Source: an uncultured Oscillospiraceae bacterium (GTDB lineage: Bacteria > Bacillota > Clostridia > Oscillospirales > Ruminococcaceae). Taken from it: a stretch of 64,000 nt of DNA. A model generated the notes under the pieces. It made no database searches and was not told where the DNA came from. It worked only from the letters and a program-made list of their open reading frames with translations. Position 1 is the stretch's first letter; each line of letters begins with the position of its first letter. Below are positions 1,622-54,056 of this stretch, in pieces. The stretch lies in contig CAKSIT010000012.1 of NCBI GenBank assembly GCA_934462925.1, positions 24,756-88,755 on the forward strand, in the 5' to 3' direction. The position numbers and the translations under genes were made by a program.

Positions 1622-3595
1622 ATGAGCGACTTACAAAAGAAATCAGCGGAGCAAAATGCTCCGCTGAATGGCTCTTATGAAAGTTTTTCTAAGCAGGTTG
1701 ATGATTGCCTGCAAGGAAAAGCAGACAGATATAATGACTTGTTTGTGTGCAGCACACCAAAAGTAATTACAGATTTAGGGTTTCCACAGTTGCCCATGTT
1801 ATATACAAAACGGCACTTAAAGGACGCTATTCACGCAAAAGAGCCAAAAGGGCAAGAGAAACATCATTATCACGGACTAAAGGTAAGGCAAATCAAAAGA
1901 TTGCCGGAACTGTTAAAGGACCCTGTAATGATTTTTCGGTCGAAAACAGAAAAGAACAGCGTCGTTGTTGTTACGAATGAATTAGATAGTGATAATGCCC
2001 CGATAATAGCAGCCGTTAAAATCAGCGGTAAGGGAACTTATGAAAATAAGGAGCAGCCCTCAAATTTCATTGTAAGTGTATACGGAAAGGACAATCAGTT
2101 TCTTTCATTCGTTCACGAAGCAATCAAGTCAAACAAGATGTTATATGTGGATATAGAAAAAAGCCAGCGATTACTCAGTGTGCTGCAACTCCAATCGTCG
2201 CAGGGCTTAAGTATCGCTGACTTCAATTATATAATATCATATTTAAGTTCATTTGTCAATACCCAAAATCAAAATTCAGAAAAAAACAAGGAGGATAAAC
2301 CATTGACCAACGATGAATTATTGAAAGCCCTTGCCGAACAACTCGGAAAGAATAACGACCTTGTGGGGGCTTTAATCAACAAAATCAACACTCTGGAGGA
2401 AAAGGTGAACGAAACAACGCAGCAGCTCCAGAGCGTTACCGAAAAGCAGGAAATGTTCACGACCCACTTCAATCAGATTTACAACGCCAAATCAATGGAA
2501 GAAACGCTCGGCATTATGTCCGATTTAGGTAAATCAGACATGGAGGTCGAAAGCTGCGATGTATACAGCTATGACGCACTTGAAGATAAGCTGTTTACCG
2601 TGGACGAGAACGGAGAGCGTGTCTATACGGATATTTCGGACAACACGCCTATATCCGCTGCGCTTCTTAAAAACGAGCTGTTCATTGATAATAACTATAC
2701 GGGCGGCGAAATCGGCGACGGCAGGGACACCGAGAAGATACATAATGTTGCCGTTATCCCTATCGAAGCCAAAACAGGCGAAGTCATAGGTGTAGTCGTC
2801 GCTAAGAACAAGGCTGTTGACTTTGACAAGGACGACGTAGACAAATTTAATCTTGAAAACGGCAAAATCGGCTCTGCGTTCCGCATGGGACTTGAAAATA
2901 AGGCGTTAAAGCAGGCGGCTATCACGGACAAGCTCACTCACCTGCACAACCGTCAGGGAGCGCAGGAACACCTCAAAAACGTAGCTCTGCCGCAGATACA
3001 CGAGGGCAACGCCGTTTCGACCATAATGATAGATATTGACAAATTCAAGAGCTTCAACGATACATACGGACACGACGCAGGCGATAAAGTCCTCCAGACC
3101 GTTGCCGAAACTCTTAAATCGCAGACCCGCAGTTCTGACGGCGTATTCCGTTGGGGCGGCGAAGAAATGGTCGTTATCGCAAACATGAACGTAAATGAAG
3201 CCTATGAGCTTGCCGAACGGCTTCGCAAGGCTATTGAGAATACCCCTTGCGATATTGGCGACGGAAAGACTGTTCAGGTCACGGCGAGCATGGGCGTTGC
3301 GCAGGTAGTTACCGAACACCCTCAGCAGCTCAACGCTGCAAATATCATGGAATACTTCGAGTCGAAGCCGCTCAAACGTGCTGATGAACGTCTGTACGAA
3401 GCTAAGGAGAACGGCAGAAATCAGGTCGTAGCTCCTCCTGCTGTGATGAAATCACATCAGCAACAGCAAGACCGCCGTAAATCTTCGGTACTCGGTTCGA
3501 TAAAGTCTGCAAAGGAAGAAGAAAACACCCGTCCGAAGCAGTCAAAAGACGTAAACCGTGACAAGCCGAAGAAAGGCAATCAAGACCTTTCATAA
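1622..3595 (+). CDS. BECR/MuF-like + GAF-like + GGDEF diguanylate cyclase fusion
   Basis: This 657-residue protein probably makes a cyclic dinucleotide. Residues about 40-190 resemble the MuF C-terminal/BECR nuclease-fold domain of phage and element proteins (HHYHGL, then RLPELLKDPVMIF). Residues 250-280 are a likely coiled coil and about 285-420 look GAF-like. Residues 433-602 are a GGDEF domain with DIDKFK metal-binding residues (D471, D473), the active-site motif GGEEM at 512-516 (normally GG[DE]EF), and an RxxD inhibitory site at R503-D506 exactly five residues before it. A tail with RRKSSVLGSI and a Lys-rich end follows. The GGDEF call is firm; the N-terminal domain is tentative. It is the last gene of the 30-3595 operon. 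I infer that it couples a second messenger to transfer or host physiology. Confidence 0.8.
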   Translation: MSDLQKKSAEQNAPLNGSYESFSKQVDDCLQGKADRYNDLFVCSTPKVITDLGFPQLPMLYTKRHLKDAIHAKEPKGQEKHHYHGLKVRQIKRLPELLKDPVMIFRSKTEKNSVVVVTNELDSDNAPIIAAVKISGKGTYENKEQPSNFIVSVYGKDNQFLSFVHEAIKSNKMLYVDIEKSQRLLSVLQLQSSQGLSIADFNYIISYLSSFVNTQNQNSEKNKEDKPLTNDELLKALAEQLGKNNDLVGALINKINTLEEKVNETTQQLQSVTEKQEMFTTHFNQIYNAKSMEETLGIMSDLGKSDMEVESCDVYSYDALEDKLFTVDENGERVYTDISDNTPISAALLKNELFIDNNYTGGEIGDGRDTEKIHNVAVIPIEAKTGEVIGVVVAKNKAVDFDKDDVDKFNLENGKIGSAFRMGLENKALKQAAITDKLTHLHNRQGAQEHLKNVALPQIHEGNAVSTIMIDIDKFKSFNDTYGHDAGDKVLQTVAETLKSQTRSSDGVFRWGGEEMVVIANMNVNEAYELAERLRKAIENTPCDIGDGKTVQVTASMGVAQVVTEHPQQLNAANIMEYFESKPLKRADERLYEAKENGRNQVVAPPAVMKSHQQQQDRRKSSVLGSIKSAKEEENTRPKQSKDVNRDKPKKGNQDLS

Positions 3596-3765: not shown

Positions 3766-4380
3766 ATGAAGAAATTCACCGCAATGCTCACAATTCTTTC
3801 AGTCGCTGTCTTTTCCCTTGTCGGTTGTTCCGGCAAGGAGGACGAACCCTCGTCAAGCGGCTTTTCCATGGAAAGCGAAGTCTTTACAACGACCGCCGCC
3901 ACTTCTTCCGTGGAAACGACGTCTGTTGAAGAAGAAATAATTCGTAAAAAAGCAAATTCTATGGAGGAGCTTTTAATCGGCGTAGCTAATGCAATCGGCA
4001 GTCATAACGAAGATGAGTTCAACTCTTATATTTCCCCTAAATACCGAAACCATAAGACATACGGGTATAAGACTATTCACAAGAAATTTATTGAAGCCTT
4101 AAACAATGCGGGGCTAGATTTCAGGCAAACTTATACTTATAGAGATTTCTGCTTTTTTAGATATGAAAACGGAAAATCATACGAATTTATATTGAAAGAA
4201 GCACCTGATGATGTTCGATTTGATTTAGGACAATTTTCCTTCGGTTACGATTTGGAAAACGACGAGTATTTCATATTATCAGTTTCCTTTACACCAATTA
4301 AGGGGCGCTATGAAAGAGCACTGAAAAATGATGAACAGTTAGACTTATCCGCATACGCCACGGAGGAGGTGACAGAGTAA
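3766..4380 (+). CDS. Element-encoded lipoprotein
   Basis: This 204-residue protein has a type II signal peptide: MKK, a hydrophobic stretch and the lipobox LVGC, so lipidation is predicted at Cys21 and the protein should sit on the outer face of the membrane. A Ser/Thr-rich linker (residues 22-60) leads to a globular domain of about 130 residues rich in aromatic residues that I do not recognise. The ATG follows AAAGGAA. The last base of its stop codon is the first base of the next start, so the pair is tightly coupled. Surface exclusion or a mating-surface role would fit a lipoprotein in a conjugative operon, but that is inference. Confidence 0.7.
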   Translation: MKKFTAMLTILSVAVFSLVGCSGKEDEPSSSGFSMESEVFTTTAATSSVETTSVEEEIIRKKANSMEELLIGVANAIGSHNEDEFNSYISPKYRNHKTYGYKTIHKKFIEALNNAGLDFRQTYTYRDFCFFRYENGKSYEFILKEAPDDVRFDLGQFSFGYDLENDEYFILSVSFTPIKGRYERALKNDEQLDLSAYATEEVTE

Positions 4381-4718
4381 TGCCCGAAACATACGATTTG
4401 GAAATAGTGCCTATCAGCACATATCTGTTTGAGCTTCCCGGAACGCCGGAGGGCGAGGACATAGAAGTTACGATTTCTTTTTTCAGGGACACAAAGCACA
4501 ACGTCATTGCAGAAGCATGGCTACGCCCGAAGAAATGCAGACTAAAGCAGTTCTGGGCGGACATTTACCAATTTGAGGACTACGATGACCTTTCAGACGA
4601 AGAAATCATAAAAAGGGTCTTGCCAGTGTTTAACGAGAGTGATGTATTCAACGAGAGCGTTCAGGCTGTCATTGATAACGCTTGGGATTACTTCGAGTTT
4701 ACGGAGAACGGAGGATAA
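4380..4718 (+). CDS. Hypothetical acidic protein
   Basis: A 112-residue acidic protein without signal peptide or membrane helix. It overlaps the upstream stop by one base and ends three bases before the giant helicase gene, so it is an internal operon member. The N-terminal half looks beta-rich (DLEIVPISTYLFELPG) and the C-terminal half helical (SDEEIIKRVLPVF). I do not recognise a family. Conserved placement next to the giant gene would suggest a partner or accessory role, but the sequence does not show it. Confidence 0.55.
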   Translation: MPETYDLEIVPISTYLFELPGTPEGEDIEVTISFFRDTKHNVIAEAWLRPKKCRLKQFWADIYQFEDYDDLSDEEIIKRVLPVFNESDVFNESVQAVIDNAWDYFEFTENGG

Positions 4719-4721
4719 TAA

Positions 4722-7700
4722 ATGACAAAACTTGAACAGTATTATAAACTTTCAAGGGAGAAATCGCAGCTGCTGTGGCAGGATAAGGACTATTATCTGT
4801 CCTTTCTTCGTACTGCGGGGCAGCTTTACAAGTACGAATTTCATGACCAGCTTCTTATTCACGCACAGAACCCCGCTGCGACTGCCTGCGCTGAATACGA
4901 CTTCTGGAATGACGAGTCCAAGATGAATAGGTATATCAAACGTGGAAGCAAGGGCATTGCCCTCATTGACCAAAGCGGCGCACATCACCGCCTGCGCTAT
5001 GTTTATGACGTATCGCAGACAGGCAGACGAGATGAACGCTCCAAAGACCCGTATCTGTGGGAGGTAAACGAGAATAACCGCCAAACGGTCATTGACGTCC
5101 TTGGTTCGACAGCCGAACATCTGGACACCGCTATCATGGAAAAAGCTCATGAGCTTGCTGAGGATTATGCAGATTATTACAGCAACGCTCTTACCAACAG
5201 CGACGTTTCTGACAACACGTTTCTTGAGGAGCTTGACGAGCTGAACACAAGGACTGATTTTTCTGAACTGTTGGAAAACAGCCTTGCTTACGTTCTCCTT
5301 TCCCGCTGCGGATATGAGCCTGACTTGTACTTTGACGAATACGATTTTGCAAAGCTCTACGAATTTAACAGTATCGGTGCTATGTCCGTACTCGGTACGG
5401 CTGTAAGCGACATTACGGAAACTGCGCTCAGAAGCATTGAGCGTGTCATAAAAGCTGAAAGGAGCATTGAAAATGAACGAAGCATTACCCAAAACAATAA
5501 CAGAGAACGGAATCAGTTACACTCTGGACGAGAGAACGCAGACATATCTTCCCGACCTGTTCCTGCCGGAAGAACAGGAACAGCCGATAGGCAGATACGG
5601 TCAAATGCGGCTGAATTATCTTCGGGAGAACCGCAGTCCGATGTATCAGGCAATGTGCCTGTCGGGAACGCTGTATCCTCACTTGATGGAGATAGAGGAA
5701 ACAGCGCAGAAACGGCTGAACACAATGCTCCCCGAAATGAAGAAGTCGGCAGGAGCGACGGAGGAGCTGAAAGCCGCCGACCAAATGAAGTGGGTGGGTT
5801 TGATGAACAGCATACAGCAGTCAGCGGACGAGATAATCATGAACGAGCTGATATTCAACAACTGAACAGCGAGCAGGCAGTACCGAACGGTGCTGCCTTT
5901 ACTGTTTCCGAAGATACTGTTCTCGGCATTATCAATCATTATGACGAGATGAACGTTATGAAGCAGGAAACCCTTGAATTTTTCCTCGACCACGATGATA
6001 ATGACCGCCGTGCGGAGTTTGTGAAAGCGGCTTACGGTCACAGAGCGGTAGAATTTGAGCTTGACGGAAAGCCCGTCGGGTATAAGAAGCTCGGCGACGG
6101 TCTGGAGATTTGGGAGAACACAGCTGAAAACAGCGTTATCCTGTCTTGGGATACCGTGCAGGAGCTGACGGCAAGCCTTATTGACAGGCATGAATTTATC
6201 GAAGCCCCTGAATATATCGACCTTGAGCCTGACATTGAAACAGCAGATGTACAGACTGAACCGAAGCAGCTTTCGCTTTTCGGCGATATGGACGAGCTTG
6301 ACGTTTCTGAAACAGCAATGCCGACCAGAACGGCGGCAGCAGCAGTCACCTATGACATGATAGATGATTTCCTGCGAACCGGCTCAAAGAAAAACAAAAG
6401 CCTTGAACGTATCGTTGCAGAGTTTCAGAAAGAAAAATCCGTCCCTGACAGGGCGGATTTTTTGCGCAGGGAGTTCGGAACTAACGGCAACGGTCTGAAT
6501 CACGTCAGCGCAGACGGAACGGAAGAAGCAAAGGTGTCCGTATGGCACAATGACAATGGAATAACAGTCGGTATCGGCGACAGAGCCGTGAACGGCACAA
6601 GCGTATCCGTTTCATGGGCGCAGGCGGCTGAAAGGATTTCCGAGCTTCTTCAAAACGGAGATTACTGCTCTCAGGACGTTATCGACCGTGCGTTTCCGAA
6701 TGAAATAAAGGAGCTTTCGGAAAAGCTGTGGTATCTTCGTGGGGACATTGAGGGAGAATACTTTATCCCCAAAGACTTTTTCACAGGCGGTTTTGAAACA
6801 AGCACACAGAAGATAGCCGAAGCTCTGCGGGGCGAGAAGCCCGTTCAGGAGTTCATCGACGGTATGACCGACCTTATCGAACGTACTAAAGCCGACAGCT
6901 CTGTACTGCGTTTTCATATCCATAATCTTCCGGCAATTCTCCAATCCCTCAAGGACTTGCAGCTTAACCGAACGGATTATACTGCAAAGGACGGTTTTTC
7001 ATTCAGTCCGAGCGTTTTCATAACCGAGGACGAAAAGGACTTTGCGCTTTGCCATTCGACATTTATGACAAAAAGCGACATTTCAGATTACTTCGCTCAG
7101 CCGCATACCGATAAGGAAAAGGCGAATTTCCTAAAGGATAAGTACGGCATTGGCGGCGGTTCGGTGGACGGCGGTTTCATCAACTATGATTATAAGGGCT
7201 TGGTTTACTTAAAGGGCAGCTTTGAAAAAGGCATAAGAGCTGCTATCAACTGGAATGAAGCGGTACGCAGAATAACCCGTTTAATCGACGAGGGCAAGTA
7301 TATTACCCGTGATGAAATCGACAGGCAGATAGCTTATGCCAAAAAGGTGGTTGCCGACCCGGAAAACCATTTTGAAGCAGACGTTGAGTTCTCGGAACGT
7401 TTTTTGAGAAGCCACGGAGCTATGCCGCAGAAAACTGTAACCATAACCTGCAACTGGAGTGAAAGCAGTGCTTTTGAGGACGGCAAAGAGTATACTGTTG
7501 CAGAGTTTGACCGTATCATGGCGCAGGCTGATAAGGAAAAACAGGACGGCAGACGGGCAGGTCTTGAAAAGTACGGCTCAGATGAAGCGTGGAGAGAGCA
7601 GGATATAGACGGATATTACAATTACCTCGGCTACGACAAGACGAGCTTTACGGTTAATCTGCCGAACGGCGACAGTATAACGGAAAGGCAGGATATAGGC

Positions 7701-14144: not shown

Positions 14145-14582
14145 ATGCGCACAAAGACGAGTGATGAGTATATTTCTAATCGGGCATGGCTTCGAGATGT
14201 AGTAGCAGGTCAGCCGATGATTCTTCGTGGCGTGTCTGCATTAGAGTACCTTGAATATATTGACGGCTACTTTGGAGAAGATGAAATATATGTATATGCG
14301 GAAAATGAAGGCACATATGAAAACATACATTATAAAATAATTGACAATGCAGCACATATTGAGTACAAGAAACTTGGAAACGTTCTTTGTTCGACTTTTA
14401 ACCAAGCTATAAACGATACACTAAACGACCAGTTCTCAGATGACCAAGTTATTTGTGAAGCGTTAAGCAACTACTTTTATTCCAACAACGAAAGTTTTGA
14501 TGAACTGCTGATAAGCAAGGATAATTTTGAGCGGTTCAACACCCTAGTTACTTCGGCAGTTTCGTTTTACAGTGGAGGGTAA
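14145..14582 (+). CDS. AbiEi-like antitoxin candidate of a type IV system
   Basis: A 145-residue protein beginning at the ATG after AGGAGGGG. An upstream in-frame start at 14112 lacks such a site. The N terminus (DEYISNRAWLRDVVAGQP, then ILRGVSALEYLEYIDGY) matches the pattern of abortive-infection AbiEi-like proteins, where the first gene is the antitoxin and regulator. The next gene, one base after the stop, is an AbiEii-like nucleotidyltransferase, the usual partner. It is read from its own promoter and set apart from the upstream operon by a terminator. Because the partner gene is interrupted, the pair may no longer work as a toxin-antitoxin or phage-defence module. Confidence 0.6.
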   Translation: MRTKTSDEYISNRAWLRDVVAGQPMILRGVSALEYLEYIDGYFGEDEIYVYAENEGTYENIHYKIIDNAAHIEYKKLGNVLCSTFNQAINDTLNDQFSDDQVICEALSNYFYSNNESFDELLISKDNFERFNTLVTSAVSFYSGG

Positions 14583-14583
14583 A

Positions 14584-15486
14584 ATGACAGAAAAAGAAAA
14601 GTTGATGTATGATATTATTTCCAAAATTTCCGACATGGACGTCCCCATTGTATTCAAAGGAGCTTTAATTACCAAACTGATACTGGACGAACATGGCTAC
14701 AAGGAAATTCAAAGAATGACTAAAGATATAGATGCTAACTGGATAGGTTCCCCGCCATCTATGTCGTATTTAAGAAATACCATTAGTGAAGCCCTCGGTG
14801 AATTAAATGAGAAATTCGATGTTGAAGAAAGCAGAGAATATGGACAAGGCAGGTCAGCAGGTCTTGCCATTCGTGATAAGTTGACAGGCGATAAAGTTAT
14901 TTCTATGGATATTGACATCAAGTCATCATCTGGAGCAAGAGCATATTATTATGGCGAAGCTAGTATTAAAGGCGTTTTAGCAAATGATATTCTTGCAGAT
15001 AAAATCAGTACTATGTCAAGTGATGCTGTATTTAAGCACCGTGCAAAAGACATGGTTGACGTGTATGCTTTAACGCATTGTGTTAAAGTAGATGTAAAAT
15101 AGATTTTTGATACCTGCGCTAGAACAGGCAGAAATATTCAATCGTTTGATAGCTTTTTCAATAGAAAAGCTGATGTTGAACACGCATACAACAAGTTGAA
15201 AGGAATAGAGGGAAAACCGCCATTTGCCACGGTTTACAGCTATTTGAGTAATTTTGTAGTTCCTTTCGCCAAAAGAGAGATTAAATCATGTATATGGAAT
15301 CCGCAAAAGAAAAGTTGGGATTCTGATGAACCCCAACGGATACGTTTACAGGATAATTCTGTTCCACAGGAAAAACGCTCCTCTGTTCTGGCAGACCTAA
15401 AGACCATAAAGGCAGAACAGGCGCAGGACAAGCCCGACCGCTCTCATCAGCGCAGCAAGACCAAATCGAATAACATAGAATTGTAA
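14584..15486 (+). pseudogene. AbiEii/AbiGii-type nucleotidyltransferase, interrupted by an amber codon
   Basis: The start follows GTGGAGGG. Residues 1-172 carry the AbiEii fold: VFKGALITKLIL, then RMTKDIDANWIG with the nucleotidyltransferase acidic residues, and ADKISTMSSDAVFKHRAKDMVDVY. A TAG at 15100-15102 ends the frame. The same frame then stays open for another 127 residues to 15486, with FDTCARTGRNIQSFDSFF and a C terminus holding KRSSVLADLKTIKAEQ. The full length of about 300 residues fits the family, and the tail is the element's shared tail, so this is one gene split by a point change rather than two genes. Readthrough is possible but not shown by the sequence. AbiEii proteins act as toxins, so a disabled copy would be tolerated. 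Confidence 0.7.
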
Positions 15487-16770: not shown

Positions 16771-17220
16771 TCAGAACGGGTAATCATCGTCGTCTGCACT
16801 CATTCTGTTAAGGTCATTAACGAGGTCGGCATAATTCTCAGACTCGGCGAGAGAGGAGTGAGGAGCTTCTGTGTTTTCTGAATCAGTGCTGTCCTTATCA
16901 GTAGTCTTGTTTCCAGTAAAGTAAATGTGTTCGGCAGCGATTTCTGTCGCTATACGCTGATTCCCTTTCTTATCCGTGTATTTCCTTGTGCGGAGCTTTC
17001 CGTCAAGTGCAGCGAGCTGTCCTTTTTGGAAGTGGGTTGAAATGAACTCCGCAAATTTGTTCCACGCAATGACATTGAAGAAGTCTGTTGCGTATTCACC
17101 GTTCTCGTCCTTAAAGTCACGAGAAACTGCAAGAGTAAAGCGGCATACGGTGTAGTTTTCACCTGTGAATACTTCGGGGTCTGCCACAAAACGCCCCATA
17201 AGCTGTACATTATTAAGCAT
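16771..17220 (-). CDS. ssb: Single-stranded DNA-binding protein
   Basis: A 149-residue SSB. Residues 1-105 are the OB fold (NNVQLMGRFVADPEV at the start, FFNVIAWNKFAEF and the basic strand LRTRKYTDKKGNQR). A flexible acidic linker and the protein-interaction tip DDDDYPF follow. The tip ends in PF as in bacterial SSBs, so it should recruit replication and repair partners. Element-borne SSBs coat the single strand during conjugative entry and blunt the SOS response. The ATG follows AGAAAGGACATTAT. Its 80-base leader is nearly identical to that of the gene at 17649, showing a local duplication. The first mini-CRISPR array lies just upstream. Confidence 0.92.
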   Translation of the reverse strand: MLNNVQLMGRFVADPEVFTGENYTVCRFTLAVSRDFKDENGEYATDFFNVIAWNKFAEFISTHFQKGQLAALDGKLRTRKYTDKKGNQRIATEIAAEHIYFTGNKTTDKDSTDSENTEAPHSSLAESENYADLVNDLNRMSADDDDYPF

Positions 17221-17225
17221 ATAAT

Positions 17226-17308
17226 GTCCTTTCTGACGGTTAAAGGCTTGCCCGTCTGCCTTATTTAATTCGCCATTGGCGAATTATTTCAATGTCTAAA
17301 TCAAGGTA
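17226..17308 (-). repeat. Duplicated leader segment, copy at ssb
   Basis: About 83 bases covering the ribosome-binding site and the 17-bp palindrome are repeated at 18189-18271 with two differences that I can see. The duplication places an identical leader before ssb and before the gene at 17649. Confidence 0.75.
17268..17284. repeat. 17-bp palindrome, copy 3
   Basis: Perfect copy of the dispersed palindrome in the ssb leader. Confidence 0.8.
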
Positions 17309-17332
17309 AACCGCAATGTTCCAATAATCGCA

Positions 17333-17501
17333 GTTTTCATTCTGTGCAAAACTGTAGAGGTCTAAAACTGATTGGATTTTTTCTATTGCTGGACTCTGTG
17401 CTTTCGTCATGTGCAAAACTGTAGAGGTCTAAAACATAGTTTAAATCAATCCTTTCTGTCAGCTCGCTTTCGTCATGTGCAAAACTGTAGAGTTCTAAAA
17501 C
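17333..17501 (-). CRISPR. Mini-CRISPR array 1 (three repeats, two spacers)
   Basis: The 36-base repeats lie at 17333-17368, 17400-17435 and 17466-17501, with spacers of 31 and 30 bases. Read on the minus strand, the consensus begins GTTTTAGACCTCTACAG and ends CACATGACGAAAGC. The repeat next to the structured RNA has one change near its 5' end (GAC to GAA). The far repeat has four changes in its 3' half, as expected of a leader-distal terminal repeat. I assign the minus strand because the adjacent RNA element and cas12f lie on it. An array this short with no cas1/cas2 suggests fixed guides rather than active spacer uptake. I saw no match of these spacers elsewhere in the window by eye. Confidence 0.8.
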
Positions 17502-17635
17502 CCCAAACCACATAACAACACATAACGTCCGTGCGGATTTTCATGCACGGAGCTTATACCTTCCCGTGAGTAAAGCCTACGTCGCAAGCGACGGTTTACG
17601 GCTACTATCACGGTCTTAGGCTGCAAAGTCAGCCC
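17502..17635 (-). ncRNA. Cas12f tracrRNA-like element, copy 1
   Basis: About 134 bases, nearly identical in three places, each ending exactly at a CRISPR repeat. Minus-strand folding gives a GGCTG/CAGCC hairpin, a CGTCG-CTTG-CGACG hairpin enclosed by a long pairing, and CCGTGC/GCACGG joined to the array by an A/T-rich segment. The CTCCGTGCA...CCGCACGGACG part is almost the same as in the guide RNA of AsCas12f1 as I recall it. The next bases, CGTTATGTGT, can pair with ACACATGACG at the 3' end of the commonest repeat variant, an antirepeat in the expected place. It begins just after the stop of the gene at 17649. Confidence 0.7.
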
Positions 17636-17648
17636 TTATATACGGTTA

Positions 17649-18182
17649 TTACAGTTCTACTGAGTGGGATTTCTTGACTGCCGGTTCGCTCTGGGTTCGG
17701 GACTGTTCCGATTTAATATTGTTCAGCTCTGAAAGAACAGATTTTCTTTCGTTTATTTCTTCTTTGGGGGGCATTTTTTCAAGTGCAATCTTGTTTTCCT
17801 GCACGTCTACGTCAATATCTCCTATTAACGTAAAATATGAAAGTCCAAAACTTTTCGGGTGTACATCTCCGTTAATGGTGTCGCTTTCGTAATTCTCTAT
17901 TTCTTCGATTTCTTCGATGGTTTTCTTTTCGTACTGTTCAATGGGTTCGCCGAAATCGCCGTTCAGAAAATCAACCTCATCAAAAGAAGTGTCGCTGTTC
18001 TGAATACGCAGTTTTTCAACAATGTCGTTAAACGTTTCTCCATGGAGGTCGCCATAGAGGTTGACATCACCCCAACAACCAGAGGGAGCAGTATCAGGCG
18101 CATACCACTTATCGCCGAAATTAAGCAAAATGTGGCGTGTTCCCTCGACTTCCTGAATGTACATTTTAGCTTTGTTGTCCAT
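17649..18182 (-). CDS. Hypothetical acidic protein with element-type C-terminal tail
   Basis: A 177-residue soluble acidic protein. The N-terminal half (EVEGTRHILLNFGDKWYAP, then FNDIVEKLRI) appears globular, followed by Glu-rich helices. The last 35 residues contain ERKSVLSELNNIKSEQ and end HSVEL, closely like the AbiEii tail that ends NNIEL. Its ATG is directly preceded by the duplicated leader shared with ssb. It lies between array 1 and array 2, so it is embedded in the Cas12f region, but nothing in the sequence shows a direct role there. Family not recognised. Confidence 0.55.
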   Translation of the reverse strand: MDNKAKMYIQEVEGTRHILLNFGDKWYAPDTAPSGCWGDVNLYGDLHGETFNDIVEKLRIQNSDTSFDEVDFLNGDFGEPIEQYEKKTIEEIEEIENYESDTINGDVHPKSFGLSYFTLIGDIDVDVQENKIALEKMPPKEEINERKSVLSELNNIKSEQSRTQSEPAVKKSHSVEL

Positions 18183-18188
18183 GTTACG

Positions 18189-18271
18189 TCCTTTCTGACG
18201 GTTAAAGGCTTGCCCGTCTGCCCTATTTAATTCGCCATTGGCGAATTATTTCAATATCTAAATCAAGGTAA
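18189..18271 (-). repeat. Duplicated leader segment, copy at 17649 gene
   Basis: Near-identical partner of 17226-17308. It includes the ribosome-binding region and a palindrome copy. Confidence 0.75.
18230..18246. repeat. 17-bp palindrome, copy 4
   Basis: Perfect copy of the dispersed palindrome, in the leader of the 177-residue protein gene. Confidence 0.8.
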
Positions 18272-18287
18272 GCATACCTGCTTCATC

Positions 18288-18388
18288 GCTTTCGTCATGT
18301 GTAAAACTGTAGAGGTCTAAAACTTCTGCTCTTTGCACAAATTGGAGGGACAGCTTTCGTCATGTGTAAAAACATAGAGTTCTAAAAC
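18288..18388 (-). CRISPR. Mini-CRISPR array 2 (two repeats, one spacer)
   Basis: Repeats at 18288-18323 and 18353-18388 enclose a 29-base spacer. On the minus strand the first repeat carries the GAA variant and a TATG/ACAC core; the second is close to consensus. The second repeat is not degenerate at its 3' end, so the bases beyond it (beginning GATGAAGCAGG) could serve as a further guide without a closing repeat. It directly follows tracr-like copy 2 and cas12f, giving the order cas12f, tracrRNA, array usual for type V-F loci. Confidence 0.78.
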
Positions 18389-18521
18389 TCAAACCACATA
18401 ACAACACATAACGTCCGTGCGGATTTTCATGCACGGAGCTTATACCTTCCCGTGAGTAAAGCCTACGTCGCAAGCGACGGTTTACGGCTACTGTCACGGT
18501 CTTAGGCTGCAAAGTCAGCCC
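18389..18521 (-). ncRNA. Cas12f tracrRNA-like element, copy 2
   Basis: Second copy of the structured element. It begins about 20 bases after the cas12f stop codon and runs into array 2. It differs from copy 1 by one internal base (in the TGACAG segment) and one missing base near the repeat. The CCGTGC/GCACGG and CGTCG/CGACG stems are intact. I see no separate strong promoter, so it may be released from the cas12f message by RNase III or Cas12f-guided processing. Confidence 0.7.
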
Positions 18522-18524
18522 GTT

Positions 18525-18541
18525 ATTCGCCATTAGCAAAT
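18525..18541. repeat. Degenerate palindrome, copy 5
   Basis: ATTCGCCATTAGCAAAT differs at two positions from the perfect form. It overlaps the last base of the cas12f stop codon. Confidence 0.6.
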
Positions 18542-19893
18542 CAATCATTATTTTCCGTGTTTGCTTTCAGCAGCTCGTCAATATCTTCTATAACAAGTGC
18601 CTTGGGTATATTGTAATCTATGTCAAAAGCCTGTCCGCAGCAGGTGCATATATCATACACCATTCCGTCATCTGTTTTCTTGCGTTCAACGGTAGGAGCT
18701 TTGCATTCGCTGCACCATTTGCGCAGACCCTTGTAACCGACCTTAACGACCTTGATACCAAATTCCTTTGCCTTATACTCAATCTTGCCGATAAGGTCGT
18801 AATAAGACCAGTTTTTAAGAAGCGTACTGCGTTCAAGTTCCTCGGAAGCAAGTCCATTTAAGTCCTCTATCTGAATAACCCCACATTTGTTTGCAACTGC
18901 CCAGTTTACAATCTGCCGTGAATAACGGTGATTTGTGGTGTTCCGAAAATTAGAAATCTTATTGCTTATATGATTCAAAGGCTCCATTTTTTTACGATAG
19001 CCATGTCCTACTCTGCCGTCGCCGCAAAGGACAGAATGCTTGGAACTTGCCATGCCGATGTTCCGTCTGCGCCGTTCTATCTGTGTTGCAAAAGCGAGAA
19101 CTTCACCGCCGTCAATCGTGTACTTTTTTGGTTTATGGCTAAAAGTACAGATAACCGCATTATGTTCTGCGATATGAACGCCCATTATATTTTTCATCTG
19201 TTCTTTGCTCGGTTCTGTCTTTGGCTTGTCGAAAGAGTAACAGAGCAGTAAGTACCACTTTCCGTTGTCGTATTTTATTTTGCTTCCCGCAATGCTGTAT
19301 ACTTCATCATAGCAGCGTTCAAGAATAGTTCTTACGCTTCCTGCTGATTTTGCAGGAACAATAGCCTTAAATATGAGCGAACCTGTCGAAAGGTTATATT
19401 CTTTCTTTGCAGCTCTTGAAAACAAGCTAAGTTCAAATATCCATTCTTTAACTCCGCCGTTTTCGTCCTTGTCGCATTGAAGTTTAATGCTGTTCTTATG
19501 CAGCTCAATGGGGATATTGCTTTTATATGAGGGAATAGACACGTTACCACGCAGTATATCGCCCTTTATGGCATTAAATCTGCCGCACACTCCTTGGCTT
19601 AACATTGAAAGATTACCAGTATTCATACTGGGAGCGTCCTCTTTGATACGATTGTAAATAACCGTAGAAAGCGATTTCCCAAGAATTTCTTTGTTTTCTT
19701 CACGGGTAGGGTATTCACCGTGTTTTTTCTTCCAGTCACTTTCAAAGCCGCTGTATTCCCAACACAATTGAATACATCTGTTGGCGGCAGTTCTTGTTTC
19801 TCGCTGAAGTTCCCAAAGCAGTTTATTTACTTCTTTATACTCAAGTACATCATCATTCTTTGAAATAAGTTGAATTTTTGTCGTTTTTGTCAT
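18541..19893 (-). CDS. cas12f: Cas12f1 (type V-F) homologue with altered RuvC-I, probably nuclease-dead
   Basis: A 450-residue protein aligning along its length with AsCas12f1 (422 residues, recalled). Shared segments are LQRETRTAANRCIQLCWEY, HGEYP, the LRGNVSIPSYK region, NFRNTTNHRYSRQIV and NWSYYDL. RuvC-II keeps Glu343 (IQIED) and RuvC-III keeps Asp426 (FDIDYN). In RuvC-I the usual GIDLG is GVHIA: the catalytic Asp is His240, codon CAT at 19174-19176. Two more conserved features are changed: the T-S before the zinc ribbon is GLRKW, and the Asn after RuvC-III is lost. The zinc ribbon has Cys394, Cys397, Cys416 and Cys419. Family knowledge says the RuvC Asp is needed for DNA cutting, so I infer guided binding without cleavage. 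The start follows CGAGGATAATAAA. Arrays and tracr-like copies lie on both sides. Confidence 0.88.
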   Translation of the reverse strand: MTKTTKIQLISKNDDVLEYKEVNKLLWELQRETRTAANRCIQLCWEYSGFESDWKKKHGEYPTREENKEILGKSLSTVIYNRIKEDAPSMNTGNLSMLSQGVCGRFNAIKGDILRGNVSIPSYKSNIPIELHKNSIKLQCDKDENGGVKEWIFELSLFSRAAKKEYNLSTGSLIFKAIVPAKSAGSVRTILERCYDEVYSIAGSKIKYDNGKWYLLLCYSFDKPKTEPSKEQMKNIMGVHIAEHNAVICTFSHKPKKYTIDGGEVLAFATQIERRRRNIGMASSKHSVLCGDGRVGHGYRKKMEPLNHISNKISNFRNTTNHRYSRQIVNWAVANKCGVIQIEDLNGLASEELERSTLLKNWSYYDLIGKIEYKAKEFGIKVVKVGYKGLRKWCSECKAPTVERKKTDDGMVYDICTCCGQAFDIDYNIPKALVIEDIDELLKANTENND

Positions 19894-19910
19894 TTTATTA
19901 TCCTCGCTTT

Positions 19911-20079
19911 ATTTTCATTATGCGCAAAAATGTAGAGGTCTAAAACAAGAGAGAGGTTTATACTATGACTACAACACGCTTTCGTCATGTGTAAAAACAT
20001 AGAGGTCTAAAACCTCACGCTTTGCCGACATACGGTACACCCCGCTTTCGTCATGTGTAAAAACATAGAGTTCTAAAAC
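19911..20079 (-). CRISPR. Mini-CRISPR array 3 (three repeats, two spacers)
   Basis: Repeats at 19911-19946, 19978-20013 and 20044-20079, with spacers of 31 and 30 bases. The last repeat on the minus strand (19911-19946) is degenerate in its 3' half and ends 17 bases before the cas12f start, so the array forms the cas12f leader. The two other repeats carry a TATGTTTTTACAC core instead of TACAGTTTTGCAC, and the one next to tracr copy 3 has the GAA variant. All five spacers of the three arrays differ from each other. Confidence 0.8.
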
Positions 20080-20213
20080 CCCAAACCACATAACAACACA
20101 TAACGTCTGTGCGGATTTTCATGCACGGAGCTTATACCTTCCCGTGAGTAAAGCCTACGTCGCAAGCGACGGTTTACGGCTACTGTCACGGTCTTAGGCT
20201 GCAAAGTCAGCCC
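20080..20213 (-). ncRNA. Cas12f tracrRNA-like element, copy 3
   Basis: Third copy, following the stop of the gene at 20242 and running into array 3. It differs from copy 1 at two positions. One changes GCACGG to GCACAG in the main stem, so this copy may fold less stably. Near identity of three copies beside unrelated spacers points to recent duplication or to selection and gene conversion on the RNA. Confidence 0.68.
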
Positions 20214-20216
20214 GTT

Positions 20217-20233
20217 ATTCGCCATTGGCGAAT
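20217..20233. repeat. 17-bp palindrome, copy 6
   Basis: Perfect copy between the gene at 20242 and tracr-like copy 3. Confidence 0.8.
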
Positions 20234-20241
20234 TGTTCATA

Positions 20242-20835: not shown

Positions 20836-21864
20836 TCAGATTTTCTGTGAGAAGTATTCTTTAAGCGCAAGATTGATAATATCCTGAACCCTAGCTTCGT
20901 CCCAATCGGGAGAGAAGTATTTATCGGATATTTCAGTATCAATCTTAACACGGATAGGCTTGCGTTTAGCCACAGGCGCATTGCCCAATCTTCCTGTAAT
21001 GAGGATTTCATGGATAGCATTGTCGTTGAGCTTATTCTGTCTGGACACCTCCCGCAGAAGTGCGGATTTCTTCATATCAACGCCGAAGTCTATCAGCTCT
21101 GCGACTTTTCTCTGTTCCGATGAGAACAGATAAGACAGATTGACTGCCGCTCTGACGGCAATCCTGCCCTCGTCAACATAGGGCTTTAGTTCGGGGACGA
21201 GCTTGTCAATGCGTATGAGCCTTGCGACGGTATCCTTACTCAGACCATAGTTTTCGCCGACTGCGGCGAGCTTGCTTTTCTTTTCGCCGTCCGCTGTATT
21301 CTCGACTTCCTCTCCATTAAGTATTGCAAGTTCTCTCACAATAGCGTTGCGCTTGTCCTCGTCGAACATGGCGGAATGCCGAGCAGCCAGAACGGCTGCT
21401 CGCTCGGTAATGGAGAGGTCGTCAAATCCACGCTGCATGAAGTTCGTTTCTGCGACGTACATTTCGGCTTCATCATAGGAAAGGTTCTCCTTGACTATAC
21501 CGGGAACAGACGTCTTTCCCGCAAGCTGTGCAGCATTACAGCGATTGTGTCCGGCAAGTATTTCATACTTGTCGAGATGTGAGCGGTAGAACTCTGCCGC
21601 TTCGCCGAGCTTTGCTTTCTTGTCCTCATCAGCGGTGTTCATCTCGCTTTCGATGAGCTTTACAAGCTCGTCGTTAATAAGCATGACAATGATGGGAGTT
21701 AATACGCCGTTGCTCCTGATACTCTGTACCATGTCCTGCAAGCGTTCGCCGTCATAGAGCTTGAACCTGTGATTGTGACGGGGTACGAGCAGATTAAGCG
21801 GGAGCTGTTTCAGAGTATTGCTCTCGGAAATGAAGCTTCCGAAATTAAATGCGGGTCCGACCAT
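20836..21864 (-). CDS. parB: ParB-family partition protein
   Basis: A 342-residue ParB/RepB/Spo0J-type protein. The N-terminal ParB domain has LPLNLLVPRHNHRFK, MVQSIRSNGVLTPIIV, and AGHNRCNAAQLAG in place of the usual GERR-x-RA motif, which binds nucleotide in this family. A central HTH follows (KLAAVGENYGLSKDTVARLI). With ParA three genes upstream on the same strand, it should segregate the excised circular form or stabilise the element. Its DNA site is unknown; the dispersed 17-bp palindrome is a candidate. The ATG follows AAAGGAGGAT. Confidence 0.88.
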   Translation of the reverse strand: MVGPAFNFGSFISESNTLKQLPLNLLVPRHNHRFKLYDGERLQDMVQSIRSNGVLTPIIVMLINDELVKLIESEMNTADEDKKAKLGEAAEFYRSHLDKYEILAGHNRCNAAQLAGKTSVPGIVKENLSYDEAEMYVAETNFMQRGFDDLSITERAAVLAARHSAMFDEDKRNAIVRELAILNGEEVENTADGEKKSKLAAVGENYGLSKDTVARLIRIDKLVPELKPYVDEGRIAVRAAVNLSYLFSSEQRKVAELIDFGVDMKKSALLREVSRQNKLNDNAIHEILITGRLGNAPVAKRKPIRVKIDTEISDKYFSPDWDEARVQDIINLALKEYFSQKI

Positions 21865-25302: not shown

Positions 25303-26679
25303 TTATGTAAGGTTGTCCGTCTTGGATTTATCGAGGTTCGGCTCGGTCTTTGCAAGATTTTCAAGACTTGCCTTGAGCTTTTCGACCTCAGTAATCTCTT
25401 TCTTAATATCTCTGTATTGCTGCATAAGTTCGCCTTTCTTTTCTTTCAGGAAAGCTCTCTGGTTTTCCAAATCCGAAACAGCAGGAAGTCTGCCGTTCTC
25501 ATTGAGCAATCCCTGAACATTTTTCTTCGCTACCTGATATAGCAGAAGCTCTTGTTCATGCTCACGGAAGAACTTGTCCTTGTTCTTCGCACCATTGTAT
25601 TTCTGATTGACCTCTTTGGTTTCGTGATAGGTCTGAAGCTGTTTGATTTGCAACGACAAATCAGTCATTTGTGCTTCGACCTGTTTGATTTCGTCCTGAA
25701 TGTCAAGTCGTTCATCGTAAAGGTCAATCTGCTTTGCCCGAACCTGTTCGGGACTGTCGAAGCCACGCTCTGACAGCTCGTTAATGAGCTTGGAAGCGTT
25801 CTTCATGTTTTGGAGCATAGCCCAACGCTTCAAGCCCTCGTTTTCTTCAACCTTGCCCTCAATAGCAATAAACCGTTGACCTCGTGGAATATATCTGTAT
25901 TCCCGCGAGGTTTTTTGTCTTTCACGCCACATAAGGCGGCGTTCAATGCGGTATCGTATCTGTTCCTCGGTATAGTAATAGCCGAGTGTTTTAGCACGGG
26001 TAAAGCGTTCCTGACCTTTGGCACGGAACGCTATATGTTTTCCGTGTTTTATCTCATAGTCAAGGGCTTTCATTCTTTCGAGGAAATCATCGAAACTTGA
26101 AGCATATTTAATGCACTCGTCAATGGAGATTTTCAGCTTCGCTTTCCAACTGTTGCCCGCTCGTTCCTGCTCCCATTCGTAACGGCTCTTACCCTTTCCA
26201 CGTTCGGGGTTGCTGATAACGGATAGCCCATATTCTCTGCACAGTTCGTCGCTGATATTCCGTATATTCTGCCATGCAGGATTATTCTTTCGGTCATGCT
26301 CTGTGCTGAACGATTTTCCCGTTTCAAAGTTTACGGCATTTATGATAATATGATTATGAATATGTTCCTTATCGACGTGAGTTGAAAGCACATATTCATA
26401 CTGACCGCCGAGCAGTTTTTGCGCAAGTTTAACTCCCAGTTCATGCGCCTGCTCTGGAGTAGCTTCTCCCGGTGAAAAAGACTGTATCAGATGAAAGGCA
26501 AGATTCTTTCCCTTATAGCCGTTTGCTGTTTGAGTTTTCAGCATTTCTTCCGCAGCGACCCTCACCGTGCAGGCGTATCCCTCGACATATTTCTGCTCCT
26601 CGGTTTTGTTCGGTTTTACGATATAGGCTATTGCAAGATTTAGGGTAGATTCGATAGAATGGATTTTTGTAATTGCCAT
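25303..26679 (-). CDS. mobA: MOBP-type relaxase
   Basis: A 458-residue relaxase. The N-terminal domain has a candidate catalytic Tyr in LNLAIAYIVKPNKT (Tyr19) and the metal-binding three-His motif HVDKEHIHNHIIIN near residues 101-114. The C-terminal half is basic and strongly coiled coil (from KQIDLYDERLDIQDEI onward). It nicks the element at oriT and covalently carries the strand to the recipient. It overlaps mobC by 40 bases, so the two are co-translated. The likely nick site is in the non-coding DNA upstream of mobC. Confidence 0.92.
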   Translation of the reverse strand: MAITKIHSIESTLNLAIAYIVKPNKTEEQKYVEGYACTVRVAAEEMLKTQTANGYKGKNLAFHLIQSFSPGEATPEQAHELGVKLAQKLLGGQYEYVLSTHVDKEHIHNHIIINAVNFETGKSFSTEHDRKNNPAWQNIRNISDELCREYGLSVISNPERGKGKSRYEWEQERAGNSWKAKLKISIDECIKYASSFDDFLERMKALDYEIKHGKHIAFRAKGQERFTRAKTLGYYYTEEQIRYRIERRLMWRERQKTSREYRYIPRGQRFIAIEGKVEENEGLKRWAMLQNMKNASKLINELSERGFDSPEQVRAKQIDLYDERLDIQDEIKQVEAQMTDLSLQIKQLQTYHETKEVNQKYNGAKNKDKFFREHEQELLLYQVAKKNVQGLLNENGRLPAVSDLENQRAFLKEKKGELMQQYRDIKKEITEVEKLKASLENLAKTEPNLDKSKTDNLT

Positions 26680-27389: not shown

Positions 27390-27578
27390 ATGTATTGTAA
27401 AATATTTTAGCACAAAAGTATTGAAATGTCAATATTTACCATTTAGAATTTTTTCGTTTAAAAAGTCCTAAAAAATTGGGATTTTACAAACAGCTTGTGG
27501 CTAATAACATGAGTTGTCCTGTAAGATGATTATGGGAGCTTTTAACGCCCCTAAATAATCTTATAGGAGGTGCGACCA

Positions 27579-27962
27579 ATGAAGTACATACGCATTGGAA
27601 GCAAAAAAATCTATGTGAGCGAGGAGGTGTATGAAGTCTATCGCAGCTCACATCGGCAAGAACGGTATCAGACCGAGCGTTCTATCGCTCACCGTGACGT
27701 GAGCATAGACGGAATGAAACGTGAACTTGCTTCGCCGATTTCCGTGGAGGACAGCTTTGAGCGTTCAGAAGAAATGAAGAAGCTCTGGCGTGCGCTCCAT
27801 TCCCTGAGCAGCGATGAGTTTAATTTTATCAATCTGCACTTTTTCGAGGGCTACTCTCTTGCAGAACTTGCCGAGCTTCGTCATAGCTCGTATATCAAGT
27901 GCTGGAGATTTCGCAAGCAAATACTTGAGAAGCTCCGCACAATTCTTAGTCATTGTGAATAA
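27579..27962 (+). CDS. Sigma-70 region 4-like regulator of conjugative elements
   Basis: A 127-residue protein starting at the ATG after ATAGGAGGTGCGACCA. The N terminus (MKYIRIGSKKIYVSEEVYEV) matches the small sigma-like HTH proteins carried beside recombinase genes in Firmicute elements. The C-terminal half fits sigma region 4 (LSSDEFNFINLHFFEGYSLA, then ELRHSSYIKCWRFRKQILEK). Region 2 is absent, so it probably acts as a DNA-binding regulator rather than a full sigma factor. Its place between the transfer genes and the integrase suggests control of excision. Confidence 0.78.
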   Translation: MKYIRIGSKKIYVSEEVYEVYRSSHRQERYQTERSIAHRDVSIDGMKRELASPISVEDSFERSEEMKKLWRALHSLSSDEFNFINLHFFEGYSLAELAELRHSSYIKCWRFRKQILEKLRTILSHCE

Positions 27963-28609: not shown

Positions 28610-30295
<1,686 letters not shown>

Positions 30296-36572: not shown

Positions 36573-36832
36573 TAAGAATACGGGGCTGTCCTTTATCGGG
36601 GCAGCACTCAAACCGTCGAAAAACCCCCATACGGGGGTTTCCCGACGGGACATCCGCGCTGCGCGCACGGTTTGACGGCACACCGTCAAACCGCACACTT
36701 GCGCGGATAGAGGAGTTTTTTGCCTCGGGAAGCCCGAGGCAAAAAAGTTATTTCAAAGCCCGCATACGAAGGCAAAATTGATTTTTTCGACAAGCTGCGG
36801 GGCTGTCCTTTATCGGGGCAGCCCCTTTTCGC
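36573..36832. repeat. Intergenic palindromic repeat family, copy A
   Basis: A block of nested palindromes: GGGGCTGTCC...GGGGCAGC at both ends, ACCCCCAT/ATGGGGG-type stem, a GGTTTGACGG/CCGTCAAACC stem with GCGCTGCGCGCAC, and TTTTTTGCCTCGGG-aa-GCCCGAGGCAAAAAA. The same modules recur at 42028-42172 and, inverted, at 53812-54056. It fills the spo0A-galM gap and supplies terminators. Confidence 0.8.
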
Positions 36833-42027: not shown

Positions 42028-42172
42028 TTGCCGCGCCGAAGCACCCGCGCTGCGCGCACGGGTTGACGGCACACCGTCAACCCGTACACTTGTGCGGATA
42101 GAAGAATTTTTCCCTCGGGAAACCCGAGGGAAAAAAATATTTTCAAGCCCGCTTTGCGGACAAAAGGCGGTG
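42028..42172. repeat. Intergenic palindromic repeat family, copy B
   Basis: A shorter copy with the GCGCTGCGCGCACGGGTTGACGG/CCGTCAACCC stem and the TTTTTCCCTCGGG/CCCGAGGGAAAAA stem. The stem sequences differ from copy A by paired changes (for example GGTTTGACGG to GGGTTGACGG with a matching change opposite), which suggests selection on RNA or DNA pairing. Confidence 0.78.
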
Positions 42173-53811: not shown

Positions 53812-54056
53812 TAAGGGCTGTCCTTTCGGGCAGCCCTCAGTCTGTCAAAAAAGTCCATTTTGCCCGTGTATGCGGGCTTTGAAATAACTTTTTTGCCTCG
53901 GGCTTCCCGAGGCAAAAAACACTTCTATCCGCACAAGTGTGCGGTTTGGCGGCAAGCCGTCAAACCGTGCGCGCAGTGCGGATGTCCCGTCGGAAAACCC
54001 CCGTATGGGGGTTTTTCGACGGTCAGAGGGCTGTCCTTTCGGGCAGCCCTCAACAA
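53812..54056. repeat. Intergenic palindromic repeat family, copy C (inverted)
   Basis: The modules of copy A appear in reverse order: GGGCTGTCC/GGGCAGCCC at both ends, TTTTTTGCCTCGGG/CCCGAGGCAAAAAA, GGTTTGGCGG/CCGTCAAACC and CCCCCGTATGGGGG. It lies between the glycosidase and the anti-sigma gene and would terminate both convergent transcripts. Confidence 0.8.

Follow-up and report, generated by a model that had tools for sequence, protein, structure and literature searches.

A Cas12f homologue with an altered catalytic site and three predicted guide-RNA cassettes on a mobile element, and its probable role in silencing genes of competing mobilizable elements

Described systems and the Cas12f-like protein

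AsCas12f1, the type V-F1 effector, is the described protein closest to the one considered here. The latter is encoded by a cas12f-like gene in a 64,000-nucleotide stretch from an uncultured Oscillospiraceae bacterium (GenBank assembly GCA_934462925.1, contig CAKSIT010000012.1, positions 24,756 to 88,755 of the forward strand; hereafter the window, in whose numbering positions are given), together with three modules, each a scaffold resembling a trans-activating CRISPR RNA (tracrRNA) joined to a mini-array. With a probability of roughly 0.7, we propose that the mobile element carrying this locus uses its catalytically altered Cas12f and three cassettes to bind and silence genes for replication and excision in competitors that are probably integrative mobilizable elements (IMEs). 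Three features can be read directly from the sequence and point to this: an Asp-to-His change kept throughout a clade, a scaffold that covaries and is present three times, and a pair of guides matching two neighbouring genes of such elements. The window protein is homologous to AsCas12f1 over nearly its full length, and in module 2 scaffold RNA and repeats follow directly after the effector gene, as for AsCas12f1. The window differs from that system in its RuvC-I histidine, its three scaffold-array modules and its predicted inability to cut.

Inactive relatives have been described as well. The nuclease-deactivated Cas12f (dCas12f) of structures 9n9c/9n9m, described with a guide RNA, is partnered with a sigma factor. 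It matched the window protein in sequence (E 1.7e-15) and in fold (ranks 14-15) but is distant from it, and the only sigma-like open reading frame (ORF) scanned (27570-27962) gave E 0.0015, below cut-off, and lies about 8 kb from cas12f. The guide RNA of TldR is not known to come with a CRISPR array, whereas the window has mini-arrays of two to three repeats in its three modules. According to the available passages of PMC13418256, TldR is a repeatedly inactivated TnpB-type protein that acts as an RNA-guided repressor, with one clade on prophages; these traits resemble the window system, but the TldR-guide RNA cassette controls flagellin, whereas the window has CRISPR-type repeats, several cassettes and mobile-element targets.

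Cas12m2 of type V-M has a His-Asp-Asp RuvC site, at which the displaced strand was seen, and silences transcription rather than cutting (PMC10442227, in the sections available). The accessible part of PMC11656645 describes V-M and type IV systems as acting in inter-plasmid competition and names subtype V-F as plasmid-enriched; the word Cas12f is absent from those passages. Cas12m2 resembles the window protein in its RuvC-I histidine and, in these two sources, in being carried by mobile elements; its silencing without cleavage is predicted for the window protein as well. The window has a tracrRNA-like scaffold and His-Glu-Asp, not His-Asp-Asp. Of the 17 sequence matches in the PDB with E up to 1, none was a chain named Cas12m, and no Cas12m model was among the 15 PADLOC models matched. 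Cas12m fold matches were remote (Foldseek ranks 36-48, E 3e-8 to 1e-7); the protein is not a close homologue of Cas12m2 and by these searches is not a member of the type V-M family. Plasmid type IV CRISPR systems likewise sit on mobile elements and repress essential genes of competitors without a nuclease, but their multi-protein effector is unrelated and their targets are conjugative plasmids, as opposed to the mobilizable elements matched here (PMC11656645, same passages). The parts of PMC13186708 that were available mention no naturally inactive Cas12f. In the literature searched, which leaves out most subscription papers, no paper described a naturally dead Cas12f with IMEs as its targets, and none an RNA-guided system in conflict between integrative conjugative elements (ICEs) and IMEs.

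The 450-residue product matched the PADLOC models Cas12f (E 2.3e-93) and Cas12u3 (E 1.9e-90), AsCas12f1 chain 8j12 (E 2.8e-83) and Pfam PF07282 (E 5.3e-7). It is a Cas12f-family effector, as in type V-F, but its RuvC residues are His240-Glu343-Asp426 in place of the usual Asp-Glu-Asp; the RuvC-I His had been missed in a preliminary description of the locus made from the sequence alone. At this first site the AsCas12f1 chain 8j12 has Asp, and chains 7wju and 8dzj have Ala. An AlphaFold model reached a mean pLDDT (predicted local distance difference test) of 83 and a pTM (predicted TM-score) of 0.56. Full-chain TM-scores to Cas12f were only about 0.45 because the domains are placed differently in the model. 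Target-normalized TM-scores (TMt) to partial chains were 0.87-0.89, and the first eight Foldseek matches were type V-F1 Cas12f (AsCas12f1). The assignment to the Cas12f fold is based on sequence, Foldseek E-values and TMt to partial chains.

We aligned 74 sequences: the window protein and 73 from the best 120 of 243 homologues, with P0001, the window's own protein, omitted. In the window's clade (57 of the 74 rows), RuvC-I was His in 56 rows, Asn in one and Asp in none. Glu343 was kept in all 55 clade rows that reach it, and the third position was Asp in 41 rows, Asn in 8, Glu in 2, Ala in 1 and a gap in 5. The 17 rows beyond the clade had Asp (9), Asn (3), Phe (3), Tyr (1) or Val (1) at RuvC-I. 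In a tree of 68 of the 74 rows (without P0048, P0053, P0054, P0055, P0060 and P0063), 52 clade rows formed one side of a branch with a support of 99 in the Shimodaira-Hasegawa-like approximate likelihood ratio test (SH-aLRT). As three sequences with Tyr, Val and Phe at RuvC-I adjoin the clade in the midpoint-rooted drawing, loss at RuvC-I may predate the clade. P0096, which sits on a long branch in another part of the tree, has Phe in place of both aspartates, as do loci L004, L006 and L007, and the cas12f of L008 has Thr and His at the two aspartate sites. Because the aspartates are altered in separate lineages, loss of cutting is predicted to have arisen more than once; judged from its residues, the window protein has likely lost it. 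L007 and L008 belong to one assembly. In L004 and L007 the array immediately precedes a gene that reads as ParA-like.

Scans of genome and viral contigs with the single protein returned no relatives. Scans with the alignment did, but the only clade members among them were L001 and L002, and 394 genomes of the order of genome G001 contained no further clade member beyond G001.

Predicted guide-RNA cassettes

The three modules lie on the minus strand at 17333-17637 (module 1), 18288-18523 (module 2) and 19911-20215 (module 3). In each, a 36-base repeat is fused to a scaffold of about 135 bases and followed by 29-31-base spacers and further repeats: three repeats and two spacers in module 1, two repeats and one spacer in module 2, and three repeats, the last degenerate, and two spacers in module 3. 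Spacers are designated by module and order (M3S1 is the first of module 3). The scaffold continues without a break into the first repeat, so that the RNA of one cassette could fold as a single guide. As with the module 2 scaffold, several ordinary Cas12f loci, among them L003, L005, L009 and L010, carry a scaffold just downstream of cas12f.

Ten scaffolds (three from the window, five from L001 and two from L002, where the first repeat is shortened) were aligned. The consensus contained 42 pairs, 17 of them with double compensatory change, and 98.7% of cells were paired; none of 500 shuffles scored as high, although a structure derived from the same ten sequences is favoured over slid controls. 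The anti-repeat:first-repeat helix comprised 10 pairs with 100% of cells paired, two showing double change. The tracrRNA-like RNA is thus predicted to pair with the CRISPR repeat, as in type V-F. Folded alone, the module 3 scaffold exceeded shuffles in stability only moderately (z -2.0; 6 of 200 shuffles were as low). A covariance model built from the ten copies scored the window scaffolds at E 7e-45 to 5e-43, a match by construction, these being training sequences. Rfam gave no match at gathering score, and the scaffold core matched nothing in the viral scan. Terminator-like sites numbered 9, compared with 5.4 (sd 1.9) in shuffles, and could not be tied to module ends.

The covariance model was searched in 33 sources; it was built on dead loci, and the available flanks were uneven. 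Loci whose Cas12f is dead by its residues held three copies (window), five (L001), two (L002, L007 and L008, one copy of L008 being cut by the contig end) or one (L004 and L006, the L006 locus ending soon after the scaffold). A single copy was found in each of L003, L005, L009, L010, L011, L013, L015, L019, L069, L071, L075, L077, L094 and L095, all with an intact first Asp, and in L020 (Asp), L022 and L076 (weak; Asn). L083, also with an intact first Asp, had two copies, one of them weak. None was detected in L012, L014, L016, L017, L018, L070, L073 and L074, for which the model may be too distant. Extra scaffold copies thus tend to go with dead proteins.

These results largely agree with the preliminary description, which had noted one cas12f-like gene and three same-strand units of structured RNA plus two to three repeats; both were confirmed. 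Its statement that ordinary type V-F loci have one tracrRNA broadly fits the copy counts. Its view of the guides as few and fixed holds for their number; their constancy is not supported, the window, L001 and L002 carrying different spacers. The reported lack of other cas genes holds for the ten neighbouring ORFs scanned, in which PADLOC matched no Cas gene beside cas12f. The label GntR-like for an upstream gene proved weak (NCBIfam 19 bits against a cut-off of 170; no Pfam match).

A 92-base leader, 95% identical between its two copies, precedes ssb (17218-17309) and a hypothetical gene (18180-18271), just downstream of modules 1 and 2, an arrangement as if module and leader had been copied together. 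The palindrome ATTCGCCATTGGCGAAT occurs at 17268-17288, 18230-18250, 18525-18545 and 20217-20237, that is, in both leaders and just upstream of the module 2 and 3 scaffolds; one copy is altered. It is a possible operator or processing site.

Targets of the located guides

The module 3 array was searched in 297 genomes, one per species, of the family of genome G002, which is also the genome of L002. M3S2 matched nine genomes (E 6e-7 to 4e-4, per genome); the best match had E 6.4e-7 for one genome, or about 2e-4 over all 297. M3S1 matched three (E 1e-5 to 1e-3), in two of which its match shares a contig with that of M3S2. Twelve loci were taken for such matches, and ten proved to be one kind of element. 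Nine of these ten had the M3S1 site (3-9 mismatches) and nine the M3S2 site (at least two with a one-base gap), about 1.35 kb apart in adjacent genes. The target of M3S1 is a DUF3987 gene (PF13148, E 4e-83 in L135). M3S2 falls on the next gene, which encodes an HTH_17 protein, and covers its ribosome-binding site and start codon. A Mob_Pre relaxase follows the target genes in L135, and a tyrosine integrase was seen in L140. Of the 54 M3S1 mismatches counted over nine loci, 47 hit third codon positions, the pattern to be expected if the target is coding sequence. A chance origin was rejected on account of these third-position mismatches and of two guides falling on adjacent genes of one element in several genomes. 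L136 has two copies of the targeted gene pair (3813-5199 and 18168-19555), about 14 kb apart on one contig. The two remaining loci, L145 and L146, were attributed to chance (8 and 6 mismatches to M3S1, no M3S2 site), and an 18-mer match of M3S1 in two viral contigs was discarded because of 12 mismatches over the spacer.

Guides of two relatives could also be located. An L002 spacer matched genome G254 over 35 of 35 bases (E 2.9e-12 for one of 222 genomes), in a gene whose resemblance to Rep (PF23343) is weak. A second L002 spacer matched at 32 of 35 bases in the adjacent Mob_Pre relaxase gene (E 6.2e-8, one of 222 genomes), with a tyrosine integrase gene nearby. In the lineage with two Phe residues, an L004 spacer matched 33 of 35 bases at the start of a tyrosine integrase gene of G825 (E 9.8e-10, 225 genomes), downstream of which lie NikA/MobC-type and relaxase genes. 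The other L004 spacers had no convincing match in the 225 genomes. A match of the L004 array in G844 was rejected, as it covers the repeat and no L004 spacer matches that stretch (L174). In L172 and in L173 relaxase and integrase occur together, the pair that marks an IME, which has no conjugation apparatus of its own; conjugation genes were considered in the ORFs scanned. The window, L002 and L004, three carriers in two lineages, thus have guides that match elements carrying integrase and relaxase genes.

Each of the five located protospacers falls in a mobile-element gene, either at its predicted start or no more than 275 bases away from it. Relative to the predicted start codon they span +186 to +215 (M3S1), -18 to +12 (M3S2), -20 to +14 (L004), and +240 to +274 and +168 to +202 (L002). 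Four have the same sense as the gene and M3S2 the opposite one. Such start-proximal positions fit blocking of transcription. The protospacer-adjacent motif of type V-F is 5' and T-rich; flank bases -3 and -2 were pyrimidines in all five protospacers (10 of 10 positions), a pattern noted post hoc at five sites only.

For the spacers of modules 1 and 2, weak matches in family genomes were rejected, since they cover only part of a spacer or a repeat, as were matches of the module 1 array in G113, which look like other CRISPR repeats, and an 18-mer match of M1S2 in one viral contig with 6 mismatches. Neither 8 further genomes (which may overlap the 297) nor the searched parts of the plasmid, phage and viral collections contained a target for M1S1, M1S2 or M2S1. 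In plasmids, queries with the region and with the three module arrays brought up nothing convincing, and neither did the arrays in phages.

Carrying element, alternative explanations and proposed role

In minus-strand order the locus comprises a ParB-like gene, the GntR-like gene, module 3, cas12f, module 2, the hypothetical gene, module 1 and ssb (Table 1). With relaxase, serine recombinase, ParA-like and ParB-like genes and ssb, the carrier likely is ICE-like, judged from its gene content; the ParA-like match was below cut-off. SerC, from the chromosomal part of the window, is 94% identical to the copies of G002, G224 and G113 (best of 245 genomes of the order of G002), and the best matches bear names including Ruminiclostridium, Hominimerdicola and Ruminococcus. 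The host is likely a relative of Ruminococcus; G002, the genome of L002, has a dead Cas12f of the same kind as the window.

Table 1. Features of the locus and its carrying element
Feature	Coordinates	Strand	Evidence or remarks
ssb of element	16771..17220	-	PF00436 E 8.8e-26
Module 1 mini-array	17333..17501	-	3 repeats; spacers M1S1 17436-17465, M1S2 17369-17399
Module 1 scaffold	17502..17637	-	repeat search, covariance model
Hypothetical gene between modules 1 and 2	17649..18182	-	no family match
Module 2 mini-array	18288..18388	-	2 repeats; spacer M2S1 18324-18352
Module 2 scaffold	18389..18523	-	17 bases past cas12f stop codon; repeat search, covariance model
cas12f-like gene	18541..19893	-	450 aa; PADLOC, AsCas12f1 chain 8j12, clade counts
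Module 3 mini-array	19911..20079	-	repeats 20044-20079, 19978-20013, 19911-19946 (degenerate)
Spacer M3S2	19947..19977	-	matches ribosome-binding site and start codon of excisionase-like gene
Spacer M3S1	20014..20043	-	matches DUF3987 gene
Module 3 tracrRNA-like scaffold, fused to first repeat	20080..20215	-	repeat search, covariation, covariance model
ParB-like gene upstream of system	20836..21864	-	PF02195 E 1e-12
Relaxase of carrying element	25303..26679	-	PF03432 E 1.3e-39
Large serine recombinase, probably near element's end	28631..30274	+	PF00239, PF07508

Elsewhere in the window, the protein at 1622-3595 combines a MuF-C domain with a GGDEF diguanylate cyclase domain, and the ORF at 14572-15102 partially matches AbiEii toxin-antitoxin models (PADLOC E 1.6e-8). 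A GC-rich inverted repeat, seen as side matches of the spacer scan, recurs in the right, chromosome-like part (36660-36693, 42055-42084 and 53934-53963).

Several points weigh against the proposed silencing of IMEs. The loss of cutting is read from residues, and two of the three catalytic ones are kept. Three of the five window spacers (M1S1, M1S2, M2S1) had no target in the 297 family genomes, the best module 2 match (E 1.7e-4) having 8 mismatches over the spacer. No module 3 match was perfect, the best having 3 mismatches in 30 bases (M3S1) and 2 in 31 ungapped or one gap (M3S2). The matches of the M3S2 target gene to excisionase (25.1 against an NCBIfam cut-off of 28.8), the MobV match (37.9 against 100) and the Rep-like match in L172 (24.3 against 27.8 bits) were all below cut-off. 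A search of one L001 array against its own genome gave only arrays and, at E 0.6, a 16-base stretch. The window, which does not reach the left part of the element, yielded no conjugation-channel genes. Promoter-like sites were at chance (11 against 9.2 expected), and scaffold copy number is not strictly tied to deadness, as the single scaffolds of L004 and L006 indicate.

A domesticated, TldR-like regulator of host or own genes, for which the matches to mobilizable elements would be secondary, is unlikely. Such a regulator would agree with a protein that is nuclease-dead by its residues, with few guides and a place among element genes, and with M1S1, which reads like a ribosome-binding site and weakly matches such sites in several genomes. 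All five located protospacers, however, lie in mobile-element genes; the five window spacers had no match elsewhere in the window with fewer than 10 mismatches, and the L001 array no host match outside arrays beyond the 16-base stretch. The preliminary description had allowed for silencing of host, rival-element or own genes. Own genes are not supported by the window search, and host genes found no support in the genomes searched, the window's own genome not being among them; modules 1 and 2 may have host targets. Rival elements are well supported for module 3, both of whose guides fall on adjacent IME genes, and guides of two relatives fall on such elements too; for modules 1 and 2 no target was found.

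Somewhat less probable still is ordinary type V-F immunity, in which the protein would cut with His in place of Asp and the small arrays would be remnants of an adaptive system. The close relationship to Cas12f1, the retention of Glu343 and usually Asp426, and guides matching foreign elements with a pyrimidine-rich flank are as this explanation would have them. It does not account for the lack of Asp in 57 clade rows, for Asn, Glu or Ala at the third site in 11 of the 52 rows reaching it, or for a second lineage with Phe at both aspartates; nor does it account for cas12f being alone among the ten ORFs scanned for Cas genes or for targets clustering at gene starts, which cutting does not need. 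Given the changed catalytic residue, silencing is likelier than cutting. A decaying, functionless CRISPR remnant is very improbable: degenerate last repeats, the changed RuvC and few spacers might suggest one, but among the 53 clade rows of at least 400 residues 52 have His and one Asn with zinc-finger cysteines retained in 51-53, RNA pairing is preserved by compensatory changes, and scaffold copies have multiplied in the window, L001 and L002.

The silencing of competing IMEs is the likeliest explanation. Each cassette RNA would fold as a natural single guide through a helix between its anti-repeat and the first repeat fused to it. With its His-Glu-Asp site the protein would bind DNA without cutting, the behaviour reported for Cas12m2 and its His-Asp-Asp site, and once bound the complex would block transcription at gene starts in the manner of CRISPR interference (CRISPRi). 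The ICE-like carrier would likely benefit by preventing IMEs from replicating, from excising and from exploiting conjugation to its cost. We lean slightly toward a broader picture, in which ICEs of gut Clostridia deprived Cas12f of its cutting on at least two occasions (by Asp to His and by two Asp to Phe) and made of it a programmable CRISPRi shield against conjugation-pirating IMEs, tracrRNA-mini-array units were copied as plug-in single-guide cassettes between element genes, and the Asp-to-His change independently repeats the Cas12m solution.

The locus would represent a natural Cas12f CRISPRi with nameable targets, acting in the conflict between ICEs and the IMEs that exploit them. The RuvC aspartate has been lost in separate lineages, in one of them to the residue of Cas12m2, which makes convergence on silencing directly testable. 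The cassettes, each a scaffold of about 135 bases with a fused repeat, would be compact natural guide units, open to testing as ready-made guides for multiplex use of a 450-residue protein.

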